A stretch of DNA of 64,000 nt from Rhodocyclaceae bacterium (GTDB lineage Bacteria > Pseudomonadota > Gammaproteobacteria > Burkholderiales > Rhodocyclaceae): assembly GCA_008080565.1 (NCBI GenBank), contig VIKE01000022.1:17025-81024 (forward strand). Direction: 5' to 3'. Below are positions 7,574 through 61,063 of the stretch, in pieces (the first letter of the stretch is position 1; each line of letters begins with the position of its first letter). Both the position numbers and the translations under genes were made by a program. A model generated the notes under the pieces. It was not told the DNA's origin. It did not search any database and saw only the letters and a program-made list of their open reading frames with translations.

Positions 7574-7615
7574 AAAAGCTACGGTTGATCGAGCGCCATG
7601 CTGATTTTTGCAATC

Positions 7616-7652
7616 CCACGGTCAACCGGAATTTTTGCCCAAAAATGAAATG
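7616..7652 (-). repeat. GGTTGACCGTGG element, copy 1
   Basis: The minus strand shows CATTTTTGGGC followed by CCGGTTGACCGTGG with the standard spacing. The element's CATTTC end is also the right arm of a perfect 10-bp hairpin (GAAATGCCGG / CCGGCATTTC, 7647-7670), so on the minus strand it reads as hairpin, T-rich stretch, element. No minus-strand gene lies upstream; this may be the leftover 3' end of a lost gene. Confidence 0.85.
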
Positions 7653-7670
7653 CCGGCTGCCCGGCATTTC

Positions 7671-7988
7671 GTGGTTTGGGTTGTGTTCCCAATTGTCATT
7701 TGGCGGAGTTCGGCCATGAGCGGACCGGTGAAGTATTTCCTATTAGCAGTCGTTTGCTGCTGAGATTGCTGATAGACGTCAGTCACATCAATGTCATTAG
7801 GGTAGTCGTATCATTCCGCATCTGGCCGGAGTTCCATATGACGCCAAATGCAAATCAAATGGAAACCTTTATCAGCGGCGCTAGAACGCATGGGCAATCA
7901 AACATGGCTTTCGAAGTGGCTAGATGTGCCGACACATTTTCTAAGCCCAGTCGGTTTTTATACAAATTTCCACTTGCCCTGCATCTCG
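7671..7988. other. Gene-poor stretch before the lipoprotein gene
   Basis: No convincing gene is seen here. The plus-strand ORFs overlapping it (7676 and the long 5' part of the 7848 ORF) lack family resemblance and look like read-through. The base composition falls relative to the acx operon, suggesting that sequence of foreign or decayed origin begins here. Confidence 0.4.
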
Positions 7989-9116
7989 ATGATTCTCGTG
8001 ACCAAAAGCGTTTTCATTTTTCTAGCAGCACTACTGCTGACAGCCTGTAGTCGGACTGATTCAGTATCGACAATAGTTGCTTTGGAACCAAAAGATGCTA
8101 TCCCTCTTGCTTGGAGGAACAGCAATACCTTAATTGTTGATTACCACGGTTCGATTTATGCCTACGACATCTCCGCTCGCAAGCTCAATCAACGCCTAGT
8201 TGATAACTATGATACGACCTCTCCCCACTGGAATTGTTTCTCACCTAATGGTGGCAGATTTGCGATAGCGCTCCCAGTCCGGTCCACAAACACTGCTAAC
8301 TCAGCACGGCCGATGGCAACGGAGCACAAAACTCGGTATATCCCCGACTGGACCCGCTCGGAAAGTTATGTTGAGGATACGAATTCGATCCAGTGGTGGA
8401 ACACCAATCCGTTTGATTGCAGTCCAATTGACCATGAAGAGCGTAAGCGGAAGATTGCCTCGCTTGAAGGCGAAGGGAGATTTGTTCGATCTCCTAGTCC
8501 GTTGTTACTTGCAAGAGAAGGTGATGCATTCGTAACGTTGAACAGAAGCGAGAGCGGCACTACTGGTCGTATCCTCCACTTATTTAGCTATGGCGCGAAG
8601 GTAACGTCGAGAGAGATTTCGCTATCCAGCGCAACAAATTCCCCGCCCAGTGATGGTTCGGACATACTTTCGTTTCGCGACTCCGACGGCAGTTACGTAA
8701 TTTTTGAGTCAAATAGCGACTTCGATGCCAATCGTGGTATCTGGCCACTTACTGCATGGCGTCTTTTCCCCGGCTTGACGACCGTAAGTGCCTTTGTTTT
8801 GCCTAGTGGTCCATGGATTCAGCCCCATGGATTTTTCAAGAGCCTTAGCTGCTTTTCATGCGGATGTATGTGCTACGCACATTTTGAGCTCACCGGGGCA
8901 TACGGGCACATCTACGCACACGTTCATGGACAATCTGTTGAGGATGCTGCAGCAGGTATTTATAAACTCATACGGGATAAGGATGGGGCAAATTGGGTGC
9001 TAGTCGTTGCTGCTAACTTTAGCGGGAAAGCTCTCGCGTCACCCGAAGGGTGCCGCGTTGCATATTCCGATGCCGATCGACGACTTCAGCTTGTCGAAAT
9101 CAAGAATTGCAAATGA
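7989..9116 (+). CDS. Putative lipoprotein of unknown function
   Basis: The track ORF starts at 7848, but the ATG at 7989 begins a proper lipoprotein signal (MILVTKSVFIFLAALLLTAC, then SRTD) with the lipobox LLTAC, giving 375 aa. The body has repeated short strands and Trp-rich stretches reminiscent of a beta-propeller, but no family can be named. Codons are clearly more AT-rich than in the neighbours. Together with the gene-poor surroundings this suggests horizontal acquisition. It is flanked by terminators and stands alone. Confidence 0.65.
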   Translation: MILVTKSVFIFLAALLLTACSRTDSVSTIVALEPKDAIPLAWRNSNTLIVDYHGSIYAYDISARKLNQRLVDNYDTTSPHWNCFSPNGGRFAIALPVRSTNTANSARPMATEHKTRYIPDWTRSESYVEDTNSIQWWNTNPFDCSPIDHEERKRKIASLEGEGRFVRSPSPLLLAREGDAFVTLNRSESGTTGRILHLFSYGAKVTSREISLSSATNSPPSDGSDILSFRDSDGSYVIFESNSDFDANRGIWPLTAWRLFPGLTTVSAFVLPSGPWIQPHGFFKSLSCFSCGCMCYAHFELTGAYGHIYAHVHGQSVEDAAAGIYKLIRDKDGANWVLVVAANFSGKALASPEGCRVAYSDADRRLQLVEIKNCK

Positions 9117-9304: not shown

Positions 9305-9336
9305 GTTGGGCAGCTATCCCGTTGATTGTCCCAATC

Positions 9337-9372
9337 CCACGGTCAACCGGAAATTTTGCCCAAAAATGAAAT
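9337..9372 (-). repeat. GGTTGACCGTGG element, copy 2
   Basis: On the minus strand it reads CATTTCATTTTTGGGC then TTTCCGGTTGACCGTGG. It follows the hairpin (9370-9389) that ends the Cys-rich protein gene, so the hairpin's T-tract is supplied by the element. Confidence 0.87.
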
Positions 9373-9389
9373 GCCGGTTGCCCGGCATT
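9370..9389 (-). terminator. Terminator of Cys-rich protein gene
   Basis: On the minus strand AATGCCGG-GCAA-CCGGCATT is followed by TCATTTTTGGGC, eight nucleotides past the stop codon. The U-rich part belongs to element copy 2. Confidence 0.7.
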
Positions 9390-9397
9390 CCGCAGCT

Positions 9398-11863: not shown

Positions 11864-11900
11864 CATTTCAATTTTGGCCTTTATTTCCGGTTGACCGTGG
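11864..11900 (+). repeat. GGTTGACCGTGG element, copy 3
   Basis: CATTTCAATTTTGGCC and TTTCCGGTTGACCGTGG are present almost perfectly, in sense orientation, six nucleotides after the stop of the PilB-like gene. Confidence 0.9.
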
Positions 11901-11928
11901 AAGAGCGGTTTCGCGGCCGGTTGAACCC

Positions 11929-12360: not shown

Positions 12361-13369
12361 GAGCGCTTTCGAACAATAAGGTGAGTGCAGTGTTGTGAAA
12401 CAGGCAGTTGTGGCCGGCCAGCGGCGCGATTTGCCCGGTGCCGTAGGCGCCGAGCAGCGGCGTGTCGGGGAAGGTGTCGCGGAAGGCGACGAGGTCGCGG
12501 TCGTCGTTGCCGTAGAACAGCGGGCCGCGGCCGATGCAGGAAAACATCAGGGCGAAATTAGGCCGTTTTTTCGGGTTGACCGTGGCAGTGAGCGCTTCAC
12601 GCATTTCCTGCTCGGCGGCGAGCGGCTGGCGGATGGCCCAGGTGATCGACTCGCCTTCGTTGAGGTTTTCGGCCAGGGTCAGCGAACCATCGGCGTTGGC
12701 CGAGAGGATGGCGATACCCGGCGCATCAGGCTGGCGTTGCGCGGCGATCAGGTGCAGGGGCGGGCGCTCGCGCAAATCGGCGGGCAGGGCGCGGTGCAGG
12801 CTGTCGACGGCGCTGTGGCCACCAATTCGGCGTAACTCGTAGCCGGCGCATTGCTCGACGGGCAGCGGCTCGCCAAGCAGGCGCAGGCCTGACGAGCGGA
12901 CCAGCCGGGCGTTTACGCCGGGCAGACTGAACTCGGCGCAGCCGTTGTCCGCCGCCCGGCCATGCGACCAGGCAGCCGCGTCGGTATCGAGCAGGCCGAC
13001 CCGTGCCGGGCCGTCCTGCCATTCGAAGGGCAGCCGGCCATGGCCGCTGAAGGAGAGCAGTGGCGCTTCAACCAGAGCCTTGCCAGCCGGCGTCGAATAA
13101 ACGAGGGCCGCCGCCGTCGGTTGATCGAGACGCCAGCCGTGCTCGGTAAACAGCCCGCTGGCCGTGCCGCCGCTGACCGTCAGGCAGCCCGCGGCGCGTG
13201 CAGCGGCGAGTACGGCGGGCTGCGGATTTCGATTGAAATCGTGGGTCAGAAAAAGGATGACGTTATCGGCGCGCACCAGCCCGGCAGCGGCCAGTGCCGC
13301 CTCGACGGCGGCCTGGGCCAGCTCCGCTTCCGGTCGCTGGCCGGCAACGAGGGCGGTGCCGACTTTCAT
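12353..13369 (-). CDS. FIST-domain protein
   Basis: The 338-aa protein has an N-terminal FIST region (NVILFLTHDFN, GCLTVSGGTASGLF) and a C-terminal FIST_C-like part (FSCIGRGPLFYG, PLLGAYGTGQIAP). FIST proteins are thought to sense small ligands, possibly amino acids. I start it at 13369, where ATGA overlaps the nth stop. The segment TATVNPKKRPNFA near residue 270 is encoded by an antisense copy of the dispersed element, placed between the linker and FSCIGRGP. It is co-transcribed with nth and DUF1841. Confidence 0.8.
   Translation of the reverse strand: MKVGTALVAGQRPEAELAQAAVEAALAAAGLVRADNVILFLTHDFNRNPQPAVLAAARAAGCLTVSGGTASGLFTEHGWRLDQPTAAALVYSTPAGKALVEAPLLSFSGHGRLPFEWQDGPARVGLLDTDAAAWSHGRAADNGCAEFSLPGVNARLVRSSGLRLLGEPLPVEQCAGYELRRIGGHSAVDSLHRALPADLRERPPLHLIAAQRQPDAPGIAILSANADGSLTLAENLNEGESITWAIRQPLAAEQEMREALTATVNPKKRPNFALMFSCIGRGPLFYGNDDRDLVAFRDTFPDTPLLGAYGTGQIAPLAGHNCLFHNTALTLLFESAHV
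12552..12585 (+). repeat. GGTTGACCGTGG element, copy 4 (inside FIST gene)
   Basis: GAAATTAGGCCG and TTTTTTCGGGTTGACCGTGG keep the spacing of the intergenic copies. The gene reads it antisense and in frame as ATVNPKKRPNF without a stop. Confidence 0.75.
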
Positions 13370-15493: not shown

Positions 15494-16555
15494 GCCGACG
15501 CCCGGGACATTTCGTTTTTGGCCAATTTTTCCGGTTGACCGTAGCAACGGGCGAGCGCTTTCGCGGGCCCGCAACTGGCCGCAGCCGCCGTCGACATCCT
15601 GCCCGGCCGAGTTGCGTACCGTCGTCCGGATGCCTTTTGCGTGCAGATAGCGGGTTAGCTCGGTGATGCGCTCGACCGCTGGCCGGCGGTAGGCAAGGGC
15701 GGCCGTGGCGTTGTAGGGGATCAGGTTCATGATCGCGTACTTGCCGGTGAGCAGGCGGACGATGCCGTCCATTTCCTCGATGCTGTCGTTGATGCCGTCG
15801 ATCAGCGTCCATTGGTACTGGATCGGATAGCTCGTCGTCCGGGCATAATGCTCGGCCAGCTCGACCAGCTCCGCCGGGTCGATGCGCGACGCCTTGGGCA
15901 GCAGTTCGGCGCGCAGTTCGGCGCGGGTCGAATGCAGTGAAATGGCCAGCGCCGGTTTGACCGTTTCCTGCGGCAGCCGCTCGAAAACGCGCAAATCGCC
16001 AACCGTCGAGAACACCAGATTCTTGTGGCCGATGCCGCCGGCCGTGCCAAGCAGATCAATCGCTTCGAGCACGTTGTCGATGTTGTGCGACGGCTCGCCC
16101 ATGCCCATGAAAACGACGCGCGTTACCTTGCGCCGGGCCCGGCCGAGGATGACCTGGGCGACCATTTCGCCGCTGCTCACCTGACGTAGCAGGCCGTCAC
16201 GACCGGTCATGCAGAAGGTGCAGCCGACGGCGCAGCCGATCTGCGTCGAGATGCACAGGCCGTCGCGCGGCAGCAGCACGCTTTCGACGGTCTGGCCGTC
16301 GGCCAGTTCGACGAGCAGGCGCGACGAGCCATCCTCGCCCGGGTGTTCGGAGCGGACGCGGGCCAGCGCTGAGAGTTCATCGTGCAAGCCGGGCAGCGCA
16401 TTGCGCAGGGCCAGCGGCAGAAAGGTTTCCGGTGGGTGGCTGCGCGGCCCGGCATCGAGCGGCTTACCTTGCGCCCAGGCGCGCATGACGCGGTCGACGT
16501 GGCAATCCTTGGCGCCCGTGGCGAACAGGGCTTGGCGGATGGTTTCGATGCGCAT
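15482..16555 (-). CDS. rlmN: RlmN-like radical SAM RNA methyltransferase
   Basis: The 357-aa protein shows the radical-SAM motif CAVGCTFC, the GMGEPSHN segment and the C-terminal SAGQDVDGGCGQLR with the methyl-carrying Cys of RlmN/Cfr enzymes, which methylate C2 of adenosine in 23S rRNA (A2503) and some tRNAs. The N-terminus is short, so it may be a divergent RlmN paralog. The last 20 or so residues (RSTGKIGQKRN and on) are encoded by an antisense copy of the dispersed element. The gene lies 42 nt after rnfE and overlaps the end of the convergent cyclase gene by 12 nt. Confidence 0.82.
   Translation of the reverse strand: MRIETIRQALFATGAKDCHVDRVMRAWAQGKPLDAGPRSHPPETFLPLALRNALPGLHDELSALARVRSEHPGEDGSSRLLVELADGQTVESVLLPRDGLCISTQIGCAVGCTFCMTGRDGLLRQVSSGEMVAQVILGRARRKVTRVVFMGMGEPSHNIDNVLEAIDLLGTAGGIGHKNLVFSTVGDLRVFERLPQETVKPALAISLHSTRAELRAELLPKASRIDPAELVELAEHYARTTSYPIQYQWTLIDGINDSIEEMDGIVRLLTGKYAIMNLIPYNATAALAYRRPAVERITELTRYLHAKGIRTTVRNSAGQDVDGGCGQLRARESARPLLRSTGKIGQKRNVPGVGSAG
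15508..15544 (+). repeat. GGTTGACCGTGG element, copy 5
   Basis: CATTTCGTTTTTGGCC and TTTTTCCGGTTGACCGTAG lie 14 nt after the cyclase stop in sense orientation. On the other strand the same bases encode the C-terminal tail of the RlmN-like protein, so one copy serves two genes. Confidence 0.87.
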
Positions 16556-18962: not shown

Positions 18963-20719
18963 TATTCGGATTTCTCGCTGGCCGGAGTGACCGGCTCGGG
19001 TTCGATCAGGTGGGCGGCGATCCGGCGCGCCTCGATGTCGGCGGCAGCCTTCTGCTGCTCCGCCGTCAGGTTCTCGGTGTTCTTTGGCTGAACGGCCTCG
19101 CGCTGCGCCTTGGCACGGGCCATGGCAGCCTCGATGGTGGCGCGTTTTGCGTCTTTTTCCGGGTTGACCGTGGCAGCCGGTGCATCGGCGGGGGCGGCGA
19201 CTGCCGGTGCAGCGGCCGTATCGGCGGCCGGCGCGGCTCCGCTTTCCGCTGCCGCTGCAGCCGCTTCAGCAGCCTTCTTGGCAGCTTGAGCAGCGGCCGC
19301 CTTGGCCAGTTTTTCAGCCTTGTCGGCCTTTTCTCGTTCTTCGCGCAACTGCTTGAACTCGAAACGGGCCTTGGCCTGGTCGGAGGCATTCTTTTCGCGT
19401 TCGCGCGCCCAGATTTCGCTCTTTGCAAAGCGGAAATACTGGACCAGCGGGATGCGTGACGGGCAGACGTAGGAGCAGCAACCGCATTCGATGCAGTCGA
19501 AAATGTTGTATTCCTGCGTCTTGCCGAAATTCTTGGCGCGCGCGAACCAGTACATTTCGAACGGTTGCAGTTCGTGTGGACAGGCCCGGGCGCAGGCACC
19601 ACAGCGGATGCACGGCATCTCCGGGGCCTTGGGCGGGAACAGGCGGTCGTCGTGGGCGATCAGGCAGTTGGTCGTCTTGACCACCGGGACCTGCGGGTTG
19701 GGTACCAGGAAACCCATCATCGGGCCGCCCATCAGGATGCCGTCAGTGTCCGGATGCGGCTGGGCGAGGGCCAGCAGTTCGTCCATCGGCGTGCCGATCA
19801 GCACTTCGTAATTGCGCGGCGCGTGGACATTGCCGGTAATGGTCAGGATGCGCGAAATCAGGGGTTCGCCGTGGGCGACGGCGCGCCAGGCGCTGTAGGC
19901 GGTGCCGACGTTGAAGACCTGAACGCCCATGTCGGCGGTCGACCGCATCGAGCCCGGTACTTCCTTGCCGGTCAGCACGCGGATCAACTGCTTGGCACCA
20001 CCGGCCGGGTAAAGCGTCGGTACGGCAACGACGGAAAACGGCTCTTTTTGGGCGTCGACCGCAGCGCGCATGGCGGCGATGGCTTCCGGCTTGTTGTCCT
20101 CAATGCCGATCAGCACCTTTTTCGGTTGCAGCAGGTCACGGAAAACGGCGATGCCGCGCACGACTTGATCGGCGCGCTCACGCATCAGCAGGTCGTCGCA
20201 GGTGATGAAAGGTTCGCACTCGGCGCCGTTGATGATCAGCTCATCCATCGGCACGCCCTTGCTCGGCGTCAGCTTGCCGTGAGCCGGGAAGCCGGCGCCG
20301 CCGAGGCCGACGATGCCGCATTGCTGCAGGTGATGAAAGACATCGGCCGGCGCTACGGCCTTGTGATCGATCGGCGTGCGGGTGATCCACTCGTCCTTGC
20401 CATCAGGTTCAATGACGACGCACAGCGAGTCGAGACCGGAGGGGTGAGGACGAACATGCATCGCCACTTCGCGTACGGTGCCCGAGGTCGGGGCGTGCAC
20501 AGCGGCGGAAATCCAGCCGTCAGCCTCGCCGATCATCTGGCCCTTGAGGACATGATCGCCAGCGGCGACGATCGGCCGCGGCGTGCCACCAATGCTCTGG
20601 TGGAGCGGTACGACCAGGCGCGAAGGCATCGGCGCCTGGGCAATCGGCAGATGGTTCGATTGCAGCTTGTTGCTCGGCGGCTTGACGCCACCCTTGAACT
20701 TGAACAGATTCATCAGCAT
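18962..20719 (-). CDS. rnfC: Rnf complex subunit C
   Basis: The 585-aa peripheral subunit contains the NADH/FMN-binding Rossmann-like part and two [4Fe-4S] motifs, CIRCGACARACP and CIECGCCSYVCPS. A long Lys/Ala-rich C-terminal extension follows, as is common in proteobacterial RnfC. Within this tail AATVNPEKDAKR is encoded by an antisense copy of the dispersed element. The start at 20719 overlaps the rnfB stop (TGATG); an ATG two codons later is also possible. Confidence 0.94.
   Translation of the reverse strand: MLMNLFKFKGGVKPPSNKLQSNHLPIAQAPMPSRLVVPLHQSIGGTPRPIVAAGDHVLKGQMIGEADGWISAAVHAPTSGTVREVAMHVRPHPSGLDSLCVVIEPDGKDEWITRTPIDHKAVAPADVFHHLQQCGIVGLGGAGFPAHGKLTPSKGVPMDELIINGAECEPFITCDDLLMRERADQVVRGIAVFRDLLQPKKVLIGIEDNKPEAIAAMRAAVDAQKEPFSVVAVPTLYPAGGAKQLIRVLTGKEVPGSMRSTADMGVQVFNVGTAYSAWRAVAHGEPLISRILTITGNVHAPRNYEVLIGTPMDELLALAQPHPDTDGILMGGPMMGFLVPNPQVPVVKTTNCLIAHDDRLFPPKAPEMPCIRCGACARACPHELQPFEMYWFARAKNFGKTQEYNIFDCIECGCCSYVCPSRIPLVQYFRFAKSEIWAREREKNASDQAKARFEFKQLREEREKADKAEKLAKAAAAQAAKKAAEAAAAAAESGAAPAADTAAAPAVAAPADAPAATVNPEKDAKRATIEAAMARAKAQREAVQPKNTENLTAEQQKAAADIEARRIAAHLIEPEPVTPASEKSE
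19142..19173 (+). repeat. GGTTGACCGTGG element, copy 6 (inside rnfC)
   Basis: GCGTTTTGCGTCTTTTTCC and GGGTTGACCGTGG preserve the right half well; the left half is degenerate. It is antisense and in frame in the variable C-terminal tail of RnfC. Confidence 0.7.
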
Positions 20720-23207: not shown

Positions 23208-23244
23208 ATGCGATTTTTACCCTGTTTTTTCCTGTTGACCGTGG
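23208..23244 (+). repeat. GGTTGACCGTGG element, copy 7 (tolC signal peptide)
   Basis: GATTTTTACCCTG and TTTTTTCCTGTTGACCGTGG match the consensus spacing with a few changes, sense and in frame. The copy covers the start codon and the hydrophobic region of the signal peptide. Confidence 0.75.
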
Positions 23245-24593
23245 CATTTCCCGCCTGGGCGGGTGGTCTGGACGATCCGTTTGGCACGGATGCCATGGCG
23301 CCGCTCAAGGTGTCGCCTAGCCTGGCTGCCCGGGTTGGCGAAGCGCCCTGTGCCACGGCTTTGCCGGTCACGCCACTGACGGCCCTCGATGCGGTCGATC
23401 TGGCCTTGTGCAACCATCCGCAGACGCGCGAGGTATGGGCTTCGGCGCGGGTGCAGGCGGCGCTGGTCGGCGTCGCCCGGGCCGGCTGGTTGCCGAATCT
23501 CGATGCCAGCGCCAGCGCGACGCGTTTTCAGTATGACGATGGTTCGTATAACCGGCGGGCCGCCGCGCTGACGCTGTCCTGGCTGCTGATCGATTTCGGT
23601 CAGCGTTCGGCCAATGTCGAGAATGCGCAGCAATTACTCAATGCGGCCGCGGCGACGCAGGATGCGACGGTCCAGTCGTTGTTCCTCGCCGCACTGCAGA
23701 CCTACTACACGGCGCAGGCGACGCAGGCGGCGGTGATTTCGGCGAGCGAGGCCGAGCGTTCGGCGCGTGAGAGTTTTCAGGCCGCTGATGCGCGCTACAA
23801 CGTCGGCGTCGCCACGCCGGCTGATCGCCTGCAGGCGCAGACGGCGCTGTCGCAGGCGACGCTCAATCGCATCCGGGCCGAGGGCGAGGCGCGCAACGGG
23901 CTGGGGGCGCTGGCCAATGCGCTCGGTTTCGAGGCGCAGCAAAAAATCGCGTTGGCTGAACTGCCGGCCTTGCCGGCCGATCTGGCTTTCCAGAAGGAAG
24001 TCGATGCCATGATTGCCGAGGCGCAGGCCCGGCGGCCTGATCTCAAGGCGGCCGAGGCGCAGCTCAAGGCGGCCGAGGCGAGCGTTGATCTGGCCCGCGC
24101 CCAGGGCCGGCCGACCGTCTCGCTGGCAGCCGGGCCAAGCTGGCAAAACACCGCCGGCGTCGTCACGCAGGGTGGCAGCATTGGCCTGACGCTCAACGTG
24201 CCGATCTTTGCCGGCTTCGACACGACTTACCGCGTGCGTTCGGCCGCGGCGCAGGCCGACGTGCGCGCCGCGCAGCGCGACCGGATCAAAAACCAGATCG
24301 CCCTCGATGTCTGGAAGTCCTACCAGAGCCTGACGACGGCGACGCAAAGCCTGAAGACCTCGGCTGATCTGGTGGCCAGCGCCGAGCAGTCGGAGCGCGT
24401 CGCGCTTGGCCGTTACAAGGCTGGCGTCGGTACCGTACTTGATTTGCTGTCGGCGCAGAGTGCCTTGGCCAGCGCCCGCCTGCAGCGCATTCAGGCGCAG
24501 CTCGACTGGAATGTTTATCGCGCCACGCTGGCTCAGTCCATGGGCGCGCTCGATTACACGCTGCTGCAACCGGCGGCGGAAGGAAGACCATGA
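23208..24593 (+). CDS. TolC-family outer membrane efflux protein
   Basis: The 461-aa product has a signal peptide (MRFLPCFFLLTVAFPAWAGG) and two OEP repeats with long coiled-coil helices (TLSWLLIDFGQRSANVENAQ and LTLNVPIFAGFDTTYRVRSA). It should form the outer-membrane channel for the MacAB-type pump encoded next; its stop overlaps macA (ATGA). The hydrophobic core of the signal peptide, FFLLTVA, is encoded by a copy of the dispersed element, and the ATG itself lies inside that copy. Confidence 0.9.
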   Translation: MRFLPCFFLLTVAFPAWAGGLDDPFGTDAMAPLKVSPSLAARVGEAPCATALPVTPLTALDAVDLALCNHPQTREVWASARVQAALVGVARAGWLPNLDASASATRFQYDDGSYNRRAAALTLSWLLIDFGQRSANVENAQQLLNAAAATQDATVQSLFLAALQTYYTAQATQAAVISASEAERSARESFQAADARYNVGVATPADRLQAQTALSQATLNRIRAEGEARNGLGALANALGFEAQQKIALAELPALPADLAFQKEVDAMIAEAQARRPDLKAAEAQLKAAEASVDLARAQGRPTVSLAAGPSWQNTAGVVTQGGSIGLTLNVPIFAGFDTTYRVRSAAAQADVRAAQRDRIKNQIALDVWKSYQSLTTATQSLKTSADLVASAEQSERVALGRYKAGVGTVLDLLSAQSALASARLQRIQAQLDWNVYRATLAQSMGALDYTLLQPAAEGRP

Positions 24594-25795
24594 AACAAAT
24601 CGGCAAGATATTGCTTGGCGTCACGGTGATTGCCGGCCTGATCGGCGGCGGCGTCTGGTACAGCAAGCAGCGCGCGGCACAGAACCCGGAAACCCGCTAC
24701 AAGCTGGCGACGGTCGAGAAGGGCGGCGTGACGCAAACGGTGTCGGCCAATGGCACGCTCAACCCGGTGGTGCTGATCAGCGTCGGGACGCAGGTGTCGG
24801 GCACGGTGAAGAAGCTCTACGTCGATTTCAACGACAAGGTGAAGAAGGGCCAGCCGCTGCTTGAACTTGACGATGCGCTGGTCTCGGCCACCGAGCGGCA
24901 GAGCGCGGCGAATGTGGTCAACGCCCAGGCGACGCTGGAACTGGCGCAGGCCAACGAGGCGCGCATGAAGTCGCTGATTGCCCAGGAATACGTCTCGAAA
25001 CAGGAATACGACCAGTCCATCCAGGCCCTCAAATCGGCCCGGGCGCAACTGGCGCTGGCCAAGGCGCAGAACGAGCGCGACCGGGCCAACCTCAATTTCA
25101 CGGTGATCCGCTCGCCGGTCGACGGCGTCGTCATCGACCGCGTCGTCGATCTCGGTCAGACGGTAGCGGCCAGCTTCCAGACGCCGACGCTGATCAAGAT
25201 CGCCCAGGATCTGTCGGAAATGCGCATCGACACGAGCTTTGCCGAGGCCGATATCGGCAACATCCGCGAGGGGCAGAAGGCGCGTTTCACGGTCGATGCC
25301 TTCCCGAGCCGCAGTTTCATGGGCGACGTCCAGCAGATTCGGCTGAACGTCGCCAACCCCGAGCAGGTGCTGTTGCCGGGCATGACGGCCTACGTCAATA
25401 TCGGCGTGCAGAAACGTGAGGGCGCGCTGCTCGTGCCGAATGCCGCGCTGCGCTTCAAACCGGCCGATGGCGGTGAGAAAAAATCCGAAAATGGCCAAAA
25501 ATCGCCGTCGACCGCAGGACCCTCGAGCGTCGGACCGGGCATGGGTGCCGGTTCCGATGGCAGCGCCGCCAAGGCTGGTGCCGGCAAGGGCAAGAAGCGC
25601 GATGGCCAGAGCGGGACGGTTTATGTGCTGACCGGCGAGGAACTCAAACCGGTCAGCGTCCAGCTCGGCATCACCGACAACCGCAACACCGAAATCGTCG
25701 GCGGCGAGTTGAAGGAGGGCGACCGCATCGTTACCGGCGAGAACGGTAGCGGGCAGACCGGCAAGCCGTCCAGCGTCGGCATGCGGATGTTCTGA
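24590..25795 (+). CDS. macA: MacA-like periplasmic adaptor protein
   Basis: This 401-aa membrane-fusion protein has an N-terminal anchor (LLGVTVIAGLIGGGVWYS), a lipoyl/barrel-sandwich part with a coiled-coil hairpin (about residues 95-165) and a beta-barrel domain. It links the ABC permease to the TolC-type channel. A low-complexity Gly/Ser/Ala/Lys insert near residue 300-340 contains what looks like a decayed element copy. It is coupled to tolC (ATGA) and to the ATPase gene (TGATG). Confidence 0.9.
   Translation: MKQIGKILLGVTVIAGLIGGGVWYSKQRAAQNPETRYKLATVEKGGVTQTVSANGTLNPVVLISVGTQVSGTVKKLYVDFNDKVKKGQPLLELDDALVSATERQSAANVVNAQATLELAQANEARMKSLIAQEYVSKQEYDQSIQALKSARAQLALAKAQNERDRANLNFTVIRSPVDGVVIDRVVDLGQTVAASFQTPTLIKIAQDLSEMRIDTSFAEADIGNIREGQKARFTVDAFPSRSFMGDVQQIRLNVANPEQVLLPGMTAYVNIGVQKREGALLVPNAALRFKPADGGEKKSENGQKSPSTAGPSSVGPGMGAGSDGSAAKAGAGKGKKRDGQSGTVYVLTGEELKPVSVQLGITDNRNTEIVGGELKEGDRIVTGENGSGQTGKPSSVGMRMF
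25480..25517 (+). repeat. Possible decayed GGTTGACCGTGG element (macA)
   Basis: CGAAAATGGCCA and CCGTCGACCGCAGG keep exactly the 12-nt spacing between GGCCA and GACCG of the intact copies, in the low-complexity insert of MacA. Only the two anchors match, so this could be chance. Confidence 0.4.
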
Positions 25796-26503: not shown

Positions 26504-26540
26504 CATTTCAATTTTGACCAATTTTTCCAGTCGACCGTGG
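26504..26540 (+). repeat. GGTTGACCGTGG element, copy 8
   Basis: CATTTCAATTTTGACC and TTTTTCCAGTCGACCGTGG lie 7 nt after the ATPase stop, in sense orientation, separating the two halves of the split macB operon. Confidence 0.85.
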
Positions 26541-26575
26541 GAATCACCAAAAAGCCGCAACCGTGAGGTTTCCCC

Positions 26576-35893: not shown

Positions 35894-36275
35894 TGGCAAA
35901 TGCCACGGTCAACCGGAAAAAACGGCCAAAAATGCAATCCGGGATCTGCCATTGAAGGCCAATCAGCCACCCGGTCCGCAAGCCTTCTTCGATGACCGGG
36001 TGATTGCCCACCAGGCCTTCGTTGCCAACCAGCGCAGTTTCGCTCGAAGAGCCGTCTTCAAGGGTATAAATCAGCGAAACGATACCGGAGACGGGAAAGT
36101 GCAAAAAGTTATCATGGTCTCCAGATTCAGAAACCGTCGATCGCAACGGCATCTTCACCAATTTCAGATCGGGTAGCAAGCGCGCGTAATCTTTCCCGGG
36201 AAGGCTTGCGAGAATGCCGTTTTGCCTTGCCTCTGGCGGAAAAGCAGGTTTCTGTCTGTTTTTTCGACATATCAA
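35835..36275 (-). pseudogene. Crp/Fnr-type regulator, truncated at dispersed element
   Basis: The first 95 or so residues are a recognisable cyclic-nucleotide-binding domain of the Crp/Fnr type (NGILASLPGKDYARLLPDL, FPVSGIVSLIYTLEDG, ALVGNEGLVGNHPVIEEG). The sequence then changes to IPDCIFGRFFRLTVAF, encoded by element copy 9, and ends in non-homologous sequence. The rest of the sensor domain and the helix-turn-helix are gone. The element sits at the break, as if insertion or recombination at it caused the truncation. Confidence 0.72.
35903..35937 (-). repeat. GGTTGACCGTGG element, copy 9
   Basis: On the minus strand GCATTTTTGGCC then TTTTTTCCGGTTGACCGTGG. It lies 10 nt after the acyP stop and forms the new 3' part of the truncated Crp/Fnr gene. 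Confidence 0.9.
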
Positions 36276-38065: not shown

Positions 38066-39474
38066 CAAAGCGCTGTGGCCAGGCGGCCAAGGGTGGCCGC
38101 AGCGGCTTCCAGCCCCGGGCTGTCCGGATGGCCGAAATTGAGCCGCAGGTAGTGAGCGAAGGCGCGCTGTGCCGAGAAAATTGGCCCCGGCGCGGTGCTG
38201 ATGCCGAGCGTCAGTGCCTGTTGATGCAGGGTCAGCGCATCGACCGTTGGCGGCAGCTCCAGCCACAGGAAATAGCCGCCTTGCGGCCGCGCCAGCCGGG
38301 TTTTTGGCGGAAAATGGCGGTTGACCGCAGCAACCAGCAGCGCTTCCTGCTCAGCCAGCGTCCGCCGCAGTTGGCGCAGGTGGTGGTCGTAGCCGCCGTG
38401 CTTCAGGTAGTCGGCCAGCGCGATCTGGACTGGCACGGTGGTGGCCAGGCTGGTGGACAGTTTCTGGCGCTGGATTTGCCCGGCAAAACGTCCGGCAGCG
38501 ACCCAGCCGAGGCGATAGCCGGGGGCCAGGCATTTGGCGAAGGACGAAATGTGCATGACCAGCCCGTCGCTGTCTTCAGCCTTGCTGCACAGTGGCGCTT
38601 GCGGCCCGAAATACAGCTCGCTGTAGACGTCGTCCTCAATCAGCGGCACCCGATGGCGGCGCAGCAGGGCGAGCAGTTCCTTCTTGCGCGCGTCGGGCAG
38701 CAGGCTGCCGCTCGGGTTGGCGAAGTTGAGCATGAGCAGGCAGGCCTTGACCGGGTGCTGCTGCAGGATGGCGGCGAGCGCTTCCAGGCTGACCCCGTCG
38801 CGCGGATGGGTGGGAATCTCGACGACACGCAGGCCGAGCCGCTCCGCCGCCTGCAGGCCGGCATAGAAGGTCGGTGATTCGACGGCGATCAGGTCGCCGG
38901 GCCGGGTTACGGCTTGCAGGCAGAGGTTGATCCCTTCCAGCGCGCCTGAGGTGACGACGATTTCATCTGGCGCCACCGGGGCGCCCCGGGCCAGGTAGCG
39001 CAGGGCCAGTTGGCGGCGCAGTTCGGCGTTGCCCGGCGGTAGGTCGCTGATCGTCGCCTGTGGGTCGAGATGGCGCGCCGCGTGGGCCAGGAAGCGGCCG
39101 AGCTTGGCCAGCGGAAACAGGGTGGGGCTGGGGAAGCTGGAGCCAAGCGGGACGACGGCGCGATCCTTGACGCTGTCGAGGATGCGGAAAATGAAATCGC
39201 TGATCTGTAATTCACTGGCCCCGGCCGGTGGCTGGCTCATGTCCGGCTCGGCCAGTTGCAGGGCCGGACGTGCCCGAACGAAATAGCCGGAACGTGGGCG
39301 GGCTTCGATCAGCCCCCGGCTTTCCAACTGGTAATAGGCCTGGGTAACCGTGATCGGGCTGACCCCATGCGCCCGGCAGGCGTCGCGGATCGACGGCAGG
39401 CGCTCGCCGGCGCGCAGCACGCCTTGGGTGATCAGGTTTGTAGTGTGCTCGGCCAGTTGCTGATAACGACTCAT
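38062..39474 (-). CDS. MocR-type (GntR-HTH / aminotransferase) regulator
   Basis: The 470-aa protein has an N-terminal GntR helix-turn-helix (GERLPSIRDACRAHGVSPIT) joined to an aminotransferase fold with the PLP lysine in SSFAKCLAPGYRLGW. These regulators use PLP chemistry to sense amines or vitamin B6. The segment AAVNRHFPPKTR near residue 390 coincides with a degenerate antisense copy of the dispersed element. It lies upstream of ccoG on the same strand. Confidence 0.9.
   Translation of the reverse strand: MSRYQQLAEHTTNLITQGVLRAGERLPSIRDACRAHGVSPITVTQAYYQLESRGLIEARPRSGYFVRARPALQLAEPDMSQPPAGASELQISDFIFRILDSVKDRAVVPLGSSFPSPTLFPLAKLGRFLAHAARHLDPQATISDLPPGNAELRRQLALRYLARGAPVAPDEIVVTSGALEGINLCLQAVTRPGDLIAVESPTFYAGLQAAERLGLRVVEIPTHPRDGVSLEALAAILQQHPVKACLLMLNFANPSGSLLPDARKKELLALLRRHRVPLIEDDVYSELYFGPQAPLCSKAEDSDGLVMHISSFAKCLAPGYRLGWVAAGRFAGQIQRQKLSTSLATTVPVQIALADYLKHGGYDHHLRQLRRTLAEQEALLVAAVNRHFPPKTRLARPQGGYFLWLELPPTVDALTLHQQALTLGISTAPGPIFSAQRAFAHYLRLNFGHPDSPGLEAAAATLGRLATALC
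38300..38330 (+). repeat. Possible decayed GGTTGACCGTGG element (MocR gene)
   Basis: GTTTTTGGC and CGGTTGACCG are separated by the same 9 nt as in the consensus, and the gene reads AVNRxxxPKT, like the antisense translation of intact copies. The middle is diverged. Confidence 0.5.
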
Positions 39475-44752: not shown

Positions 44753-44842
44753 GAAGGTGGCTCCCGAAAAATGGTTCGCGATGAAGCATACCATCGTGAT
44801 ATTTTTTCATAGCAGGCAAAGCCAGGTTTGGCCAGCAGGATG

Positions 44843-44878
44843 CCACGGTCAACCGGAAAAAGCGGCCAAAATTGAAAT
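44843..44878 (-). repeat. GGTTGACCGTGG element, copy 10
   Basis: On the minus strand ATTTCAATTTTGGCC then CTTTTTCCGGTTGACCGTGG, 15 nt after the stop of the MaoC-like gene and in its sense orientation. Confidence 0.9.
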
Positions 44879-45371: not shown

Positions 45372-46340
45372 TTACGGATTCCGGCACTGCGCCACCTGCG
45401 TGTCGCCGGCCTTGCCGCAGGGTGTCAGCGTGCCGGGCATCGGGTGCGGCGTGCCGTGCTTGTCCATGTGGGCGGCCAGGGTGTCCCATTCGAGTACGCC
45501 GGTTTTGTCGAGCTTGAGGCGGAGCAGCCAGCCGACTTTGGCTTCCGGGGCGTCGAAGCCGTCGAAGACGAAATTGCCGAGGCTGTAGATGATCGGTTTG
45601 CCCTGATAAACGTCGGCGCCTTGCGTGACGTGCGGGTGGCTGCCGACGACCATGCTGGCGCCTTCGTCGATCATGCGCCGGGCGAAGCTTTGCAGGCGCG
45701 GGCTGGCTGCCGGCTCGTATTCCCAGCCCCAGTGCATGAAGGGAATGATCAGGTCGGCGCCGGCGGCCTTGGCGGCGCGGATGTCGGAGATCACGTGATC
45801 GTCCTCGCTCCATGCCGTGCCGGGCGTGTCGGCACCGGCTTCGAAGGCGCGCGGGGCGAATTCGTTGTAGCCGAGGATGGCGATTTTGAGGCCATGGCGT
45901 TCGATCCATAGCGGCTGGTGGGCTTCGGCGAGGTTCTGGCCGGCGCCGAAATGGGCGATGCCGGCGTGGTCGAGGCGCTGCATGGTTTCGAGCAGGGCCT
46001 GGTGGCCGTAGTCGCCGACGTGGTTGTTGGCCAGCGTGACGGCGTCGAAGCGGCCTTGCAGGATGCGCAGGGTGCGCGGGTGGGCGCGGAAGGTGTAGGG
46101 CTTGTCGGCGAGGCGCCTGCCGCTTCTGGCGACGGAGGTTTCGAGGTTGGCGATGCGGTAGTCGGCGGCCTTGAGCGTTTTGGCAAAGGGCGCGAGCGGG
46201 TCGCCGCCTTTGGCGATGAGCCGGCCGGGGCCGTCGTCGAGCATGACGTCGCCAGCGAAAATGAGCGTCATGGGCTCGGCTTGGGCATTAAGGGCGGCCA
46301 GAAATACCAATGCTACGGTCAACCGGAAAAAACGGCTCAT
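45372..46340 (-). CDS. CapA-family metallophosphatase-like protein
   Basis: The 322-aa protein has a signal peptide and the PGA_cap / CapA pattern (IFAGDVMLDDGPG, NLETSVARSG, ANNHVGDYG, IPFMHWGWEYE, GSHPHVTQGADVY), with metal-binding His/Asp/Asn. Relatives act in poly-gamma-glutamate synthesis or remain uncharacterised. The signal peptide core MSRFFRLTVALVF is encoded by element copy 11, which also supplies the ATGA overlap with the upstream gene's stop. Confidence 0.87.
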   Translation of the reverse strand: MSRFFRLTVALVFLAALNAQAEPMTLIFAGDVMLDDGPGRLIAKGGDPLAPFAKTLKAADYRIANLETSVARSGRRLADKPYTFRAHPRTLRILQGRFDAVTLANNHVGDYGHQALLETMQRLDHAGIAHFGAGQNLAEAHQPLWIERHGLKIAILGYNEFAPRAFEAGADTPGTAWSEDDHVISDIRAAKAAGADLIIPFMHWGWEYEPAASPRLQSFARRMIDEGASMVVGSHPHVTQGADVYQGKPIIYSLGNFVFDGFDAPEAKVGWLLRLKLDKTGVLEWDTLAAHMDKHGTPHPMPGTLTPCGKAGDTQVAQCRNP

Positions 46341-46349
46341 TTTGCAATG
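46313..46349 (-). repeat. GGTTGACCGTGG element, copy 11 (capA start)
   Basis: On the minus strand GCATTGCAAAATGAGCC then TTTTTTCCGGTTGACCGTAG. The left block contains the stop of the upstream gene and the ATG of capA (AATGA). The right block encodes FFRLTVA of the signal peptide. Confidence 0.85.
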
Positions 46350-46756: not shown

Positions 46757-47423
46757 GGTTCGCTGGTTTGAGCACGATGTCGACCGGAATCGGCTGGCCG
46801 TTTTTGGTCGCCGGAGTCGGTTTGGCGCTGGCAAAAAGCAGTTTGCCGCCGGCCTCGATCCGGGCGCTGACGGTGGCGTTGGCCTTCTTGCCCATCAGGT
46901 CGCGGTCGACGGTAGCGCTGAAGGGAATCGGCACCTGGGCGCCATTTAGTTCATAGCGTTGATCGGCCAGCGTGCGCTGGCCGGACTGGATGCGGATCTT
47001 GAGGATGGCATTCGGCGGCAGGGCAATGCGGGTGAGATAGCTGACCGTGCCGGCGATGTCGATGAAGCTGCTGGCCGCCGCCGGCTGCGTTGCGGCCTGG
47101 GGCATGACCGGCGCCACGCTGCCGCGCGTACAGCGGCGCAGGTTGTTCTTGCCATCCTCGAAAATCGCGTCGTCGCCCTTGGTGGCCAGGCGGATGTCGC
47201 CGCTGCGATAGAGGGCGCCGGAGGCGGCTGGCACTTGCGGCAAAACGACGGCCTGGTCGGCGAAGTGCAGTGTCGCCTGCGGTCGACCGGAAATATCGGC
47301 TGAAAATGAAATGTCGATGCGGCTTCCGTTGTCGCAGGTGTAGGCGAGGCGTTCGTCGCTGGCGCTGGCGCTGAGCGGGAGGAGCAGTACAAGCGGCAGC
47401 GCCAGCAGGGGGCAGAGGTTCAT
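46740..47423 (-). CDS. MliC-YbaY fusion protein, exported
   Basis: The 227-aa product has a signal peptide ([20 protein letters not shown]) and an MliC-like domain ([20 protein letters not shown] ... NNLRRCTRG; about residues 25-100), the fold that inhibits C-type lysozyme. A YbaY-type domain follows ([20 protein letters not shown] ... VDIVLKP). The [10 protein letters not shown] segment is encoded by a diverged element copy. The start overlaps the bpt stop (ATGA). Confidence 0.78.
47279..47312 (-). repeat. GGTTGACCGTGG element, copy 12 (MliC-YbaY gene)
   Basis: On the minus strand CATTTCATTTTCAGCC then ATATTTCCGGTCGACCGC. It is sense and in frame within the MliC-like domain, more diverged than intergenic copies. 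Confidence 0.65.
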
Positions 47424-58327: not shown

Positions 58328-58364
58328 CATTTCAATTTTGGCCATTTTTTCCGGTTGACCGTGG
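58328..58364 (+). repeat. GGTTGACCGTGG element, copy 13 (reference copy)
   Basis: CATTTCAATTTTGGCC and TTTTTTCCGGTTGACCGTGG form the most regular copy, 9 nt after the prpE terminator and in sense orientation. Confidence 0.92.
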
Positions 58365-58463
58365 AAGTCTGCGCAATGACGGCGTTTGCTTCGGCGTCAC
58401 AATCCGTCCGAGGGTCGGGTGGTAGAATGCCCGCCAACTGAAGCTTTCTGTGGTTTTTGAAAA

Positions 58464-59966: not shown

Positions 59967-61063
59967 GCGAATCCCCGTGCTTGCTGGTCGAGCCGGGGAG
60001 AGTGGTGCTGTCCGGTTGCTGGACGCTAGCCGAAATGCTGCCTCAAATGCCGGCCTTGCAGGCCGATCTGGCAGCTTGTTCAAGCGGTATCGAACACTGG
60101 GATTTGTCGCCGGTAACGCGGCTGGATAGTGCTGCAGCCGTCCTGTTGTGGCGTACCTGGGGGGCGACGTGGCCGCCTGGACTGATCGCTGGGAAACTCC
60201 ACCGGCAGGTGCTTCAGCGGGTGGCCGAATTGCCTCTGGAAATTCCGGCACTGGCCAGACCCCGAGCCCGGTTCCCCGAACTCGTCGGTGCCTTGGTGCT
60301 CAAGGCTGTCGTCAACCTGCGCGGCATGATCGCCATGTTCGGCCAGTTGCTGCTCGATACGGCCTATCTCTTCCGCCATCCGCAGGATGTGCCTTGGAAA
60401 GAAATTACCGCCAATGTCTACAAGTCGGGGGCGCAGGCGCTGGCTGTCACCGCGCTGGTTGGCTTCCTGATCGGGGTGACGATCAGCTATCTGTCGGCGT
60501 TGCAGCTCAAGAGCTTTGGGGCCGATCTGTTCATCGTCAATATTCTCGGCATCTCGATCATTCGCGAGTTGGGGCCGGTGCTCGTCGCCGTGCTGGTCGC
60601 CGGTCGTTCCGGTTCGGCGATGACGGCGCAAATCGGCGTGATGCGGGTAACCGAGGAAATCGACGTGCTGTCGACGATGGGCATTTCGCGCAGCATCCGT
60701 ATCGTTTTACCCAAAATTTTCGGGTTGACCGTGGCAATGCCTCTGCTTGTGCTGTGGACCTCCGCCGTGGCGCTCTTCGGAGGCATGCTGGCCGCGCTGC
60801 TTCAGCTTGACCTGTCCCTCGTCTATTTTCTCGACAACCTGCCGCGCGCCGTGCCGGTCTCCAATCTCGTCATCGGCCTGAGCAAGGGGGTTGTCTTCGG
60901 CTTCGTCATCGCCGTCGTCGCCTGCCACTTCGGCCTGCACGTCAAACCCAATACCGAGAGCCTGTCGGCCAATACGACCAGTGCCGTGGTGACGGCGATT
61001 ACCACGGTCATTCTTTTCGATGCAGTTTTCGCCGTGTTCACACGGAACATTGGTGTGCCCTAG
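59963..61063 (+). CDS. mlaE: STAS-MlaE lipid transport permease
   Basis: The 366-aa protein has an N-terminal STAS-like region (about 1-100) fused to the MlaE/YrbE permease (ALVGFLIGVTISYLSALQ, GRSGSAMTAQIGVMRVTEEI). It is the membrane channel of an Mla/MCE-type phospholipid transporter. One helix begins PKIFGLTVAMPLL, encoded by element copy 14. It is translated from an ATGA overlap with ppx. Confidence 0.9.
   Translation: MSESPCLLVEPGRVVLSGCWTLAEMLPQMPALQADLAACSSGIEHWDLSPVTRLDSAAAVLLWRTWGATWPPGLIAGKLHRQVLQRVAELPLEIPALARPRARFPELVGALVLKAVVNLRGMIAMFGQLLLDTAYLFRHPQDVPWKEITANVYKSGAQALAVTALVGFLIGVTISYLSALQLKSFGADLFIVNILGISIIRELGPVLVAVLVAGRSGSAMTAQIGVMRVTEEIDVLSTMGISRSIRIVLPKIFGLTVAMPLLVLWTSAVALFGGMLAALLQLDLSLVYFLDNLPRAVPVSNLVIGLSKGVVFGFVIAVVACHFGLHVKPNTESLSANTTSAVVTAITTVILFDAVFAVFTRNIGVP
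60703..60734 (+). repeat. GGTTGACCGTGG element, copy 14 (inside mlaE)
   Basis: CGTTTTACCCAAAATTTTCG and GGTTGACCGTGG match the right half perfectly. The left half is remodelled, and the copy is in frame and sense at the edge of a transmembrane helix. Confidence 0.7.

Follow-up and report, generated by a model that had tools for sequence, protein, structure and literature searches.

An uptake-signal-like DNA element of Azonexus/Dechloromonas and its probable part in the convergence of signal peptides

The window, a 64-kb stretch of Rhodocyclaceae DNA, contains 16 copies of a 41-nt element, and the hydrophobic cores of two unrelated signal peptides, FFLLTVA of a TolC-family protein and FFRLTVA of a CapA-like protein, lie within such copies. 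Within the genus Azonexus/Dechloromonas, the element is very probably an uptake-signal-like sequence, an analogue of the USS of Pasteurellaceae and the DUS of Neisseriaceae that spreads by uptake bias and recombination. With somewhat less assurance, it can be regarded as a third family of uptake sequences, independent of or distantly related to the USS and present in several dialects, whose drive rewrites signal peptides into convergence.

Sequence and abundance of the element

The consensus of the element is ATTTCAATTTTGGCC-n-TTTTTTCCGGTTGACCGTGGmA, with sharp ends, random flanks, T-tracts ∼10 to 11 nt apart, and a partly palindromic core (CGGT-TG-ACCG). Copies were scored with a position-weight matrix (PWM); the best reach ∼60 to 66, compared to values below 6 everywhere in a reversed 860-kb control. 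An 860-kb sample of the source genome (G000), whose assembly is fragmented and has an estimated contamination of 6%, contains 181 to 184 copies, while reversed controls contain none. Element words are the top overrepresented 10-mers of this sample, and the word GTTGACCGTG occurs 119 times, with 3.7 expected. Extrapolation from 16% of the genome gives ∼1,100 copies genome-wide. Across the whole genome, a 21-nt pattern with up to 3 mismatches finds 599 matches, compared to 0 for the reversed pattern, an overrepresentation like that of USS and DUS. Between G000 and its relative G002, conservation is 0.92 in the core and 0.86 in the flanks (P = 0.03, 12 sites). An Rfam search of the window found no RNA family. 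The copies in the window are as follows.

7611..7651, minus strand: element copy, PWM 59.1
9332..9372, minus strand: element copy, PWM 61.4
11865..11905, plus strand: copy at a gene end, with gaps in its place in G018 and G036, PWM 61.2
12550..12590, plus strand: intragenic antisense copy, gapless against G036 and G005, PWM 41.6
15509..15549, plus strand: intragenic antisense copy, PWM 61.4
19138..19178, plus strand: element copy, with the own dialect of G035 at the orthologous site, PWM 30.6
23209..23249, plus strand: degenerate copy reading FFLLTVA at the TolC N terminus, PWM 25.8 (control maximum below 6)
25482..25522, plus strand: weak coding copy of a variant dialect, GTCGACCGCAG, PWM 23.9
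26505..26545, plus strand: intergenic copy, with variants at the same place in G005, G012, G002, G035, and G064, PWM 57.7
35898..35938, minus strand: element copy, PWM 59.1
38295..38335, plus strand: weak coding copy, GGTTGACCGCAGCA, PWM 24.3
44838..44878, minus strand: element copy, PWM 59.1
46308..46348, minus strand: copy at the CapA N terminus reading FFRLTVA, PWM 50.3
47272..47312, minus strand: coding copy, gapless against G018 and G036, PWM 39.9
58329..58369, plus strand: best intergenic copy of the window, PWM 65.9
60699..60739, plus strand: coding copy, RIVLPKIFGLTVAM, gapless against the element-free G018 and G036, PWM 40.7

Positions 7602-7671 and 9323-9392 are 91% identical over 70 nt, extending past the two element copies that they contain. 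The pair flanks an open reading frame (7848-9116) rejected by the codon-usage gene caller and is possibly the duplicated boundary of an inserted segment.

The element in signal peptides

23208..24593, plus strand: TolC/OEP-family outer membrane protein gene, 461 aa (PF02321, E = 1e-61)
23208..23261, plus strand: TolC signal peptide MRFLPCFFLLTVAFPAWA, h-region from the element (based on translation, orthologues, and cleavage after AWA placed by eye)
45372..46340, minus strand: CapA-like (PGA_cap) gene with an element-encoded signal peptide (PF09587, E = 1.8e-72)

The translated TolC/OEP protein begins with MRFLPCFFLLTVAFPAWAGG. Its element copy is true but degenerate: the core, TTTTTTCCTGTTGACCGTGGCA, has one mismatch (CTGTT instead of CGGTT), and the outer ATTTC block is unrecognizable. 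The initial annotation had placed both the start codon and FFLLTVA inside an element copy; the PWM match bears this out, with the tolC start codon on the poorly conserved 5' edge of the element and outside its conserved part. The CapA copy translates to MSRFFRLTVALVFLAALNAQA.

At least eight unrelated signal peptides of G000, called by eye and with a crude rule rather than a dedicated predictor, have the element as their h-region. Besides those of TolC and CapA, they include the following.

Cytochrome c: VIRHFIFGLFFGLTVGIAQA
Protein weakly matching cytochrome c': MKAFIFALFFLSTVAVA
Pentapeptide-repeat protein: MTTMPRHFIFALFFGSTVALA
Lipoprotein: MKEHFIFGRFFRLTVAACVVVALGAC
CcmH: MKRRLLIALFIFGSFFGSTVAFA
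DUF4197 protein: MHALKHSVFALFFGLTVGFAQA

LolA-like, ZnuA-like, and NodT-like proteins, named by eye from their sequences, are among those with element signal peptides in the relatives. The expectation of the initial annotation that the hydrophobic FFRLTVA-like sense frame is favored at N termini agrees with the counts. Copies in the (F)FRLTVA frame lie within ∼25 codons of the start in 9 of 22 cases, compared to 5 of 70 in other frames (Fisher P = 5e-4) and an expected share of 8.5%; the named relatives show 7 of 18 and 3 of 61, respectively (P = 9e-4). Both genome sets are significant with and without the start-extended cases. In the search for FFxLTVA suggested at the same time, all 8 called proteins with FFx[L/S]TV in their first 20 residues, and 13 of the 15 with it anywhere, are encoded by element-carrying genes. 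TolC is additional to these eight because the home-made gene caller, which misses some genes, wrongly starts it at 23295. The data support a derivation of the FFxLTVA common to TolC and CapA from the DNA element and not from protein homology. A lipoprotein without a Pfam match (L203:5912-6550 and L093) has a near-perfect element in its signal peptide in G000 and in a relative.

Origin by substitution

The signal peptides themselves are, judging from orthologues, older than the element copies inside them. The TolC orthologues of G018 (0 copies; MRNFGRFLLITVATLPAWA), G036 (2 copies; MRFLPAFFLLTAAAMPAWA), and G001 (1 to 2 copies; MRNLGRFFLMTVAVLPAWA) have signal peptides that are colinear except for a few codons. 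CapA of G018 is of equal length (MNPKPLCAALLAGWLNNAIGGEP), and a LolA-like protein reads MNLTQRILSVAAVALFPVLSHAGA in G018 and MKFPQKFRLTVALALFPLLANAGA in an element-bearing relative. Where the element-bearing proteins have FFxLTVA, the element-less orthologues have other hydrophobic residues. Since the TolC, CapA, and LolA signal peptides are colinear in element-free orthologues, the element arose in them by substitution and was fitted repeatedly onto existing hydrophobic cores through point mutations. The coding copies at 60699, 47272, and 12550 likewise align to their orthologues without insertion, and the colinearity of coding orthologues in G018 and G036 is the pattern known from USS and DUS. 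Together with the species-specific variants at 26505 and 19138, these alignments show that the copies originate by point substitution. The copy at 11865 is uninformative on origin because both genomes have gaps there. The proposal that TolC and CapA share a signal-peptide core of nucleic-acid origin thus stands for the shared FFxLTVA residues and fails for the signal peptide as such, which was no creation of the element, similar signal peptides being present in the element-free orthologues.

Genomic distribution and orientation

Copies occur in both orientations in coding and noncoding DNA and favor permissive sites, as do USS and DUS. Their density per kb is 1.42 in convergent gaps, 0.77 in tandem gaps, 0.50 in divergent gaps, the lowest of the intergenic classes, and 0.12 in coding DNA, an approximately tenfold difference between convergent and coding DNA. 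Intragenic copies are biased toward the antisense orientation (58:34), which speaks against the uptake reading, as do local single-strand runs in G099. In tandem gaps, the element lies a median of 31 nt past the stop codon, with 21 copies in the same orientation as the genes and 23 in the opposite one. The strands of neighboring copies are uncorrelated (65/65), and the 860-kb sample contains a single closely spaced inverted pair (<60 nt). A reading as promoter or terminator was rejected on the lack of orientation preference in tandem gaps and this single close inverted pair. Element density falls in low-GC DNA (Spearman rho = 0.59, P = 3e-9), low GC being only a proxy for acquired DNA. The largest gap between elements, 33 kb of low GC (G000:C86:40001-73134; L209, L210), is partly MGE-like and contains genes for a Gp3-like recombination directionality factor, a DUF6791-ThiF protein, and fatty-acid degradation, a partial porin gene, and ordinary metabolic genes.

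Restriction to one genus and dialects

The named relatives carrying the element are Azonexus/Dechloromonas MAGs. The general pattern of core plus T-tract is abundant in 1 of 68 sampled genera of the family, and of the 151 genomes surveyed, 147 come from the 67 other genera and show 0 to 3 hits. Within the genus, species have their own dialects around a common GGTYGACC core, comparable to the clade-specific dialects of USS and DUS. Unbiased word counts, made without G016, G027, G065, G070, and other low-count species, yielded the words GTTGACCGCA and TCGACCGCAG in G035, GTCGACCGCA/GTCGACCGCG in G031, TCACGGTCGA with GTCGACCGTG in G032, and CACGGTCGAC in G011; in G018 and G036, the counts gave no overrepresented uptake-like word. 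G064, G068, and G032 contain fully palindromic variants such as TTTTAGCGGTCGACCGCTAAA (G064) and TTTTCACGGTCGACCGTGAAA, with both arms changed in step; these could represent a dialect or else a palindromic site in its own right. Stretches of G064 (L225-L234, L194) also carry a CRISPR-array-like repeat of ∼90 copies with the words GGTTCCCCCG, AACGCGGGGG, and GGGATAGGCC.

Comparison with known uptake sequences

The literature searched describes uptake sequences from no families other than Neisseriaceae and Pasteurellaceae. The element agrees with these descriptions in a core with AT-tracts (for USS), permissive sites, substitution, and dialects (PMC1626085, PMC1939737, PMC2397512, PMC3630211, PMC7811141, PMC12616744). 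The Pasteurellaceae USS (AAGTGCGGT / ACAAGCGGT plus AT-tracts) likewise combines a core with AT-rich tracts on one side, has on the order of a thousand copies, originates by substitution, as Redfield et al. showed in 2006 when the same gap test identified USSs as not being insertions (PMC1626085), and forms clade-specific types. Both have the reverse-complement core CGGTCAA. Unlike the USS, the element, known here from its sequence, belongs to a betaproteobacterial genus, has a longer conserved part (∼36 nt) with the core CCGGTTGACCGTGG, and shows several dialects in one genus. A dialect word of G035 holds TGCGGTCAA, which agrees over 9 nt with the extended Hin-USS AAAGTGCGGTCAATTTT. This common word is suggestive: shuffled G000 consensus sequences share at least 9 bases with the Hin-USS in 0.2% of cases and 7, as the actual G000 consensus does, in 3%, values uncorrected for the choice of dialect.

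The DUS of Neisseriaceae are also betaproteobacterial, with many copies at permissive sites and gene ends and dialects around a constant core (PMC3630211). In contrast to the element, they measure ∼12 to 13 nt, have no AT-tracts, are unrelated in sequence, and have a known receptor, ComP; for the USS, PpdA/ComN is the predicted receptor. DUS are underrepresented among the N. meningitidis genes selected for phase variation and/or signal peptides (PMC2397512); the Azonexus/Dechloromonas element, by contrast, favors signal peptides.

Proposed mechanism and alternatives

The inferred chain of events starts at the competence pilus, where a DNA receptor on the cell surface would prefer DNA with the GGTYGACC core and flanking phased T-tracts. 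Through this uptake bias, better-matching fragments would enter the cell and recombine more frequently, and molecular drive could then spread point mutations toward the consensus wherever they are permissible: at the ends of genes, between genes, and at coding positions that tolerate them. The h-regions of signal peptides would be such positions, as they accept nearly any hydrophobic sequence and the sense frame (F)FRLTVA offers a ready-made hydrophobic stretch.

The most serious rival, though an unlikely one, is a directly selected site of an intracellular DNA-binding protein such as a nucleoid, segregation, or transcription factor. The part-palindromic core, fully palindromic in species such as G064, fits this, as does the even chromosome-wide spacing of copies in G099 (KS P = 0.44) with some local single-strand runs (P = 0.001). 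Such a site would, however, have to explain ∼1,100 copies, half of them within genes at the expense of the protein sequence, as well as the scarcity in divergent gaps and thus the absence of a promoter preference, the lack of strand polarity relative to genes in tandem gaps, the depletion in low-GC DNA, and the fast loss and change of dialect inside one genus.

It is very improbable that a REP/MITE-like mobile repeat copied itself in, landed at the starts of tolC and capA, and created their signal peptides. Like REP/MITE, the element is a short dispersed repeat found mainly between genes, with hundreds of near-identical copies and sharp ends, and at 11865 the orthologous gene ends of G018 and G036 lack the sequence and are gapped. 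This is the only such site; the coding copies at 60699, 47272, and 12550 and in TolC, CapA, and LolA align to element-free orthologues without a matching insertion. Copies also grade from perfect to degenerate, and different species dialects occupy the same positions (26505, 19138). On these alignments, the mobile-repeat reading is already largely refuted. Selection of FFxLTVA as a protein motif for lipoprotein or Sec targeting, with the DNA likeness as a secondary effect, is the least credible reading. It would account for the frame-specific N-terminal enrichment but not for the same DNA on both strands, in every frame, and between genes, for the concentration of FFx[L/S]TV in element-carrying genes, or for the different hydrophobic residues of element-less orthologues.

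If the uptake-sequence reading is true, a freshwater and wastewater genus provides an independent system for studying why uptake specificity evolves, and its dialects offer a test of species isolation and of which pilin reads the motif. The element also plainly illustrates how a process at the DNA level shapes proteins: the convergence among signal peptides of cytochromes, lipoproteins, CcmH, CapA, and TolC traces to DNA and not to protein selection. For annotation, FFxLTVA should count neither as a protein targeting motif nor as a sign of homology.

Competence genes

As expected of a genus with uptake sequences, competence genes are present: each of ten genomes examined has DprA and the type IV pilus secretin PilQ, and 72 of 77 have ComEC. 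The ComP_DUS Pfam family (PF16732) was rejected as a source of the receptor; its matches are heterogeneous, generic PilE-type minor pilins that differ even between species of the same dialect and occur also in the element-free G018 and G036.

By hand count, elements are few in 11 of 19 genomes with a broken or unmatched comEC, compared to 23 of 58 with an intact one, counts across species that ignore relatedness; the integrity of ComEC is weakly linked to element number. Loss of ComEC as the cause of element loss was discarded, being striking in G018 and G036 but not significant across the genus, and G002 is element rich despite an interrupted comEC. In the element-free G018, comEC is truncated to a 236-aa frame (G018:C8:1085724-1086371), and in G036 it forms two overlapping fragments (G036:C1:1959178-1959913). 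In two further genomes, comEC is split at approximately Pfam position 26 to 28 by ∼33 kb of other DNA (G002:C33:109525-144033 and G091:C1:2218607-2251879), and in G019 the break, which lies on contig ends, falls at about the same place; the gene may be the target of a mobile element.
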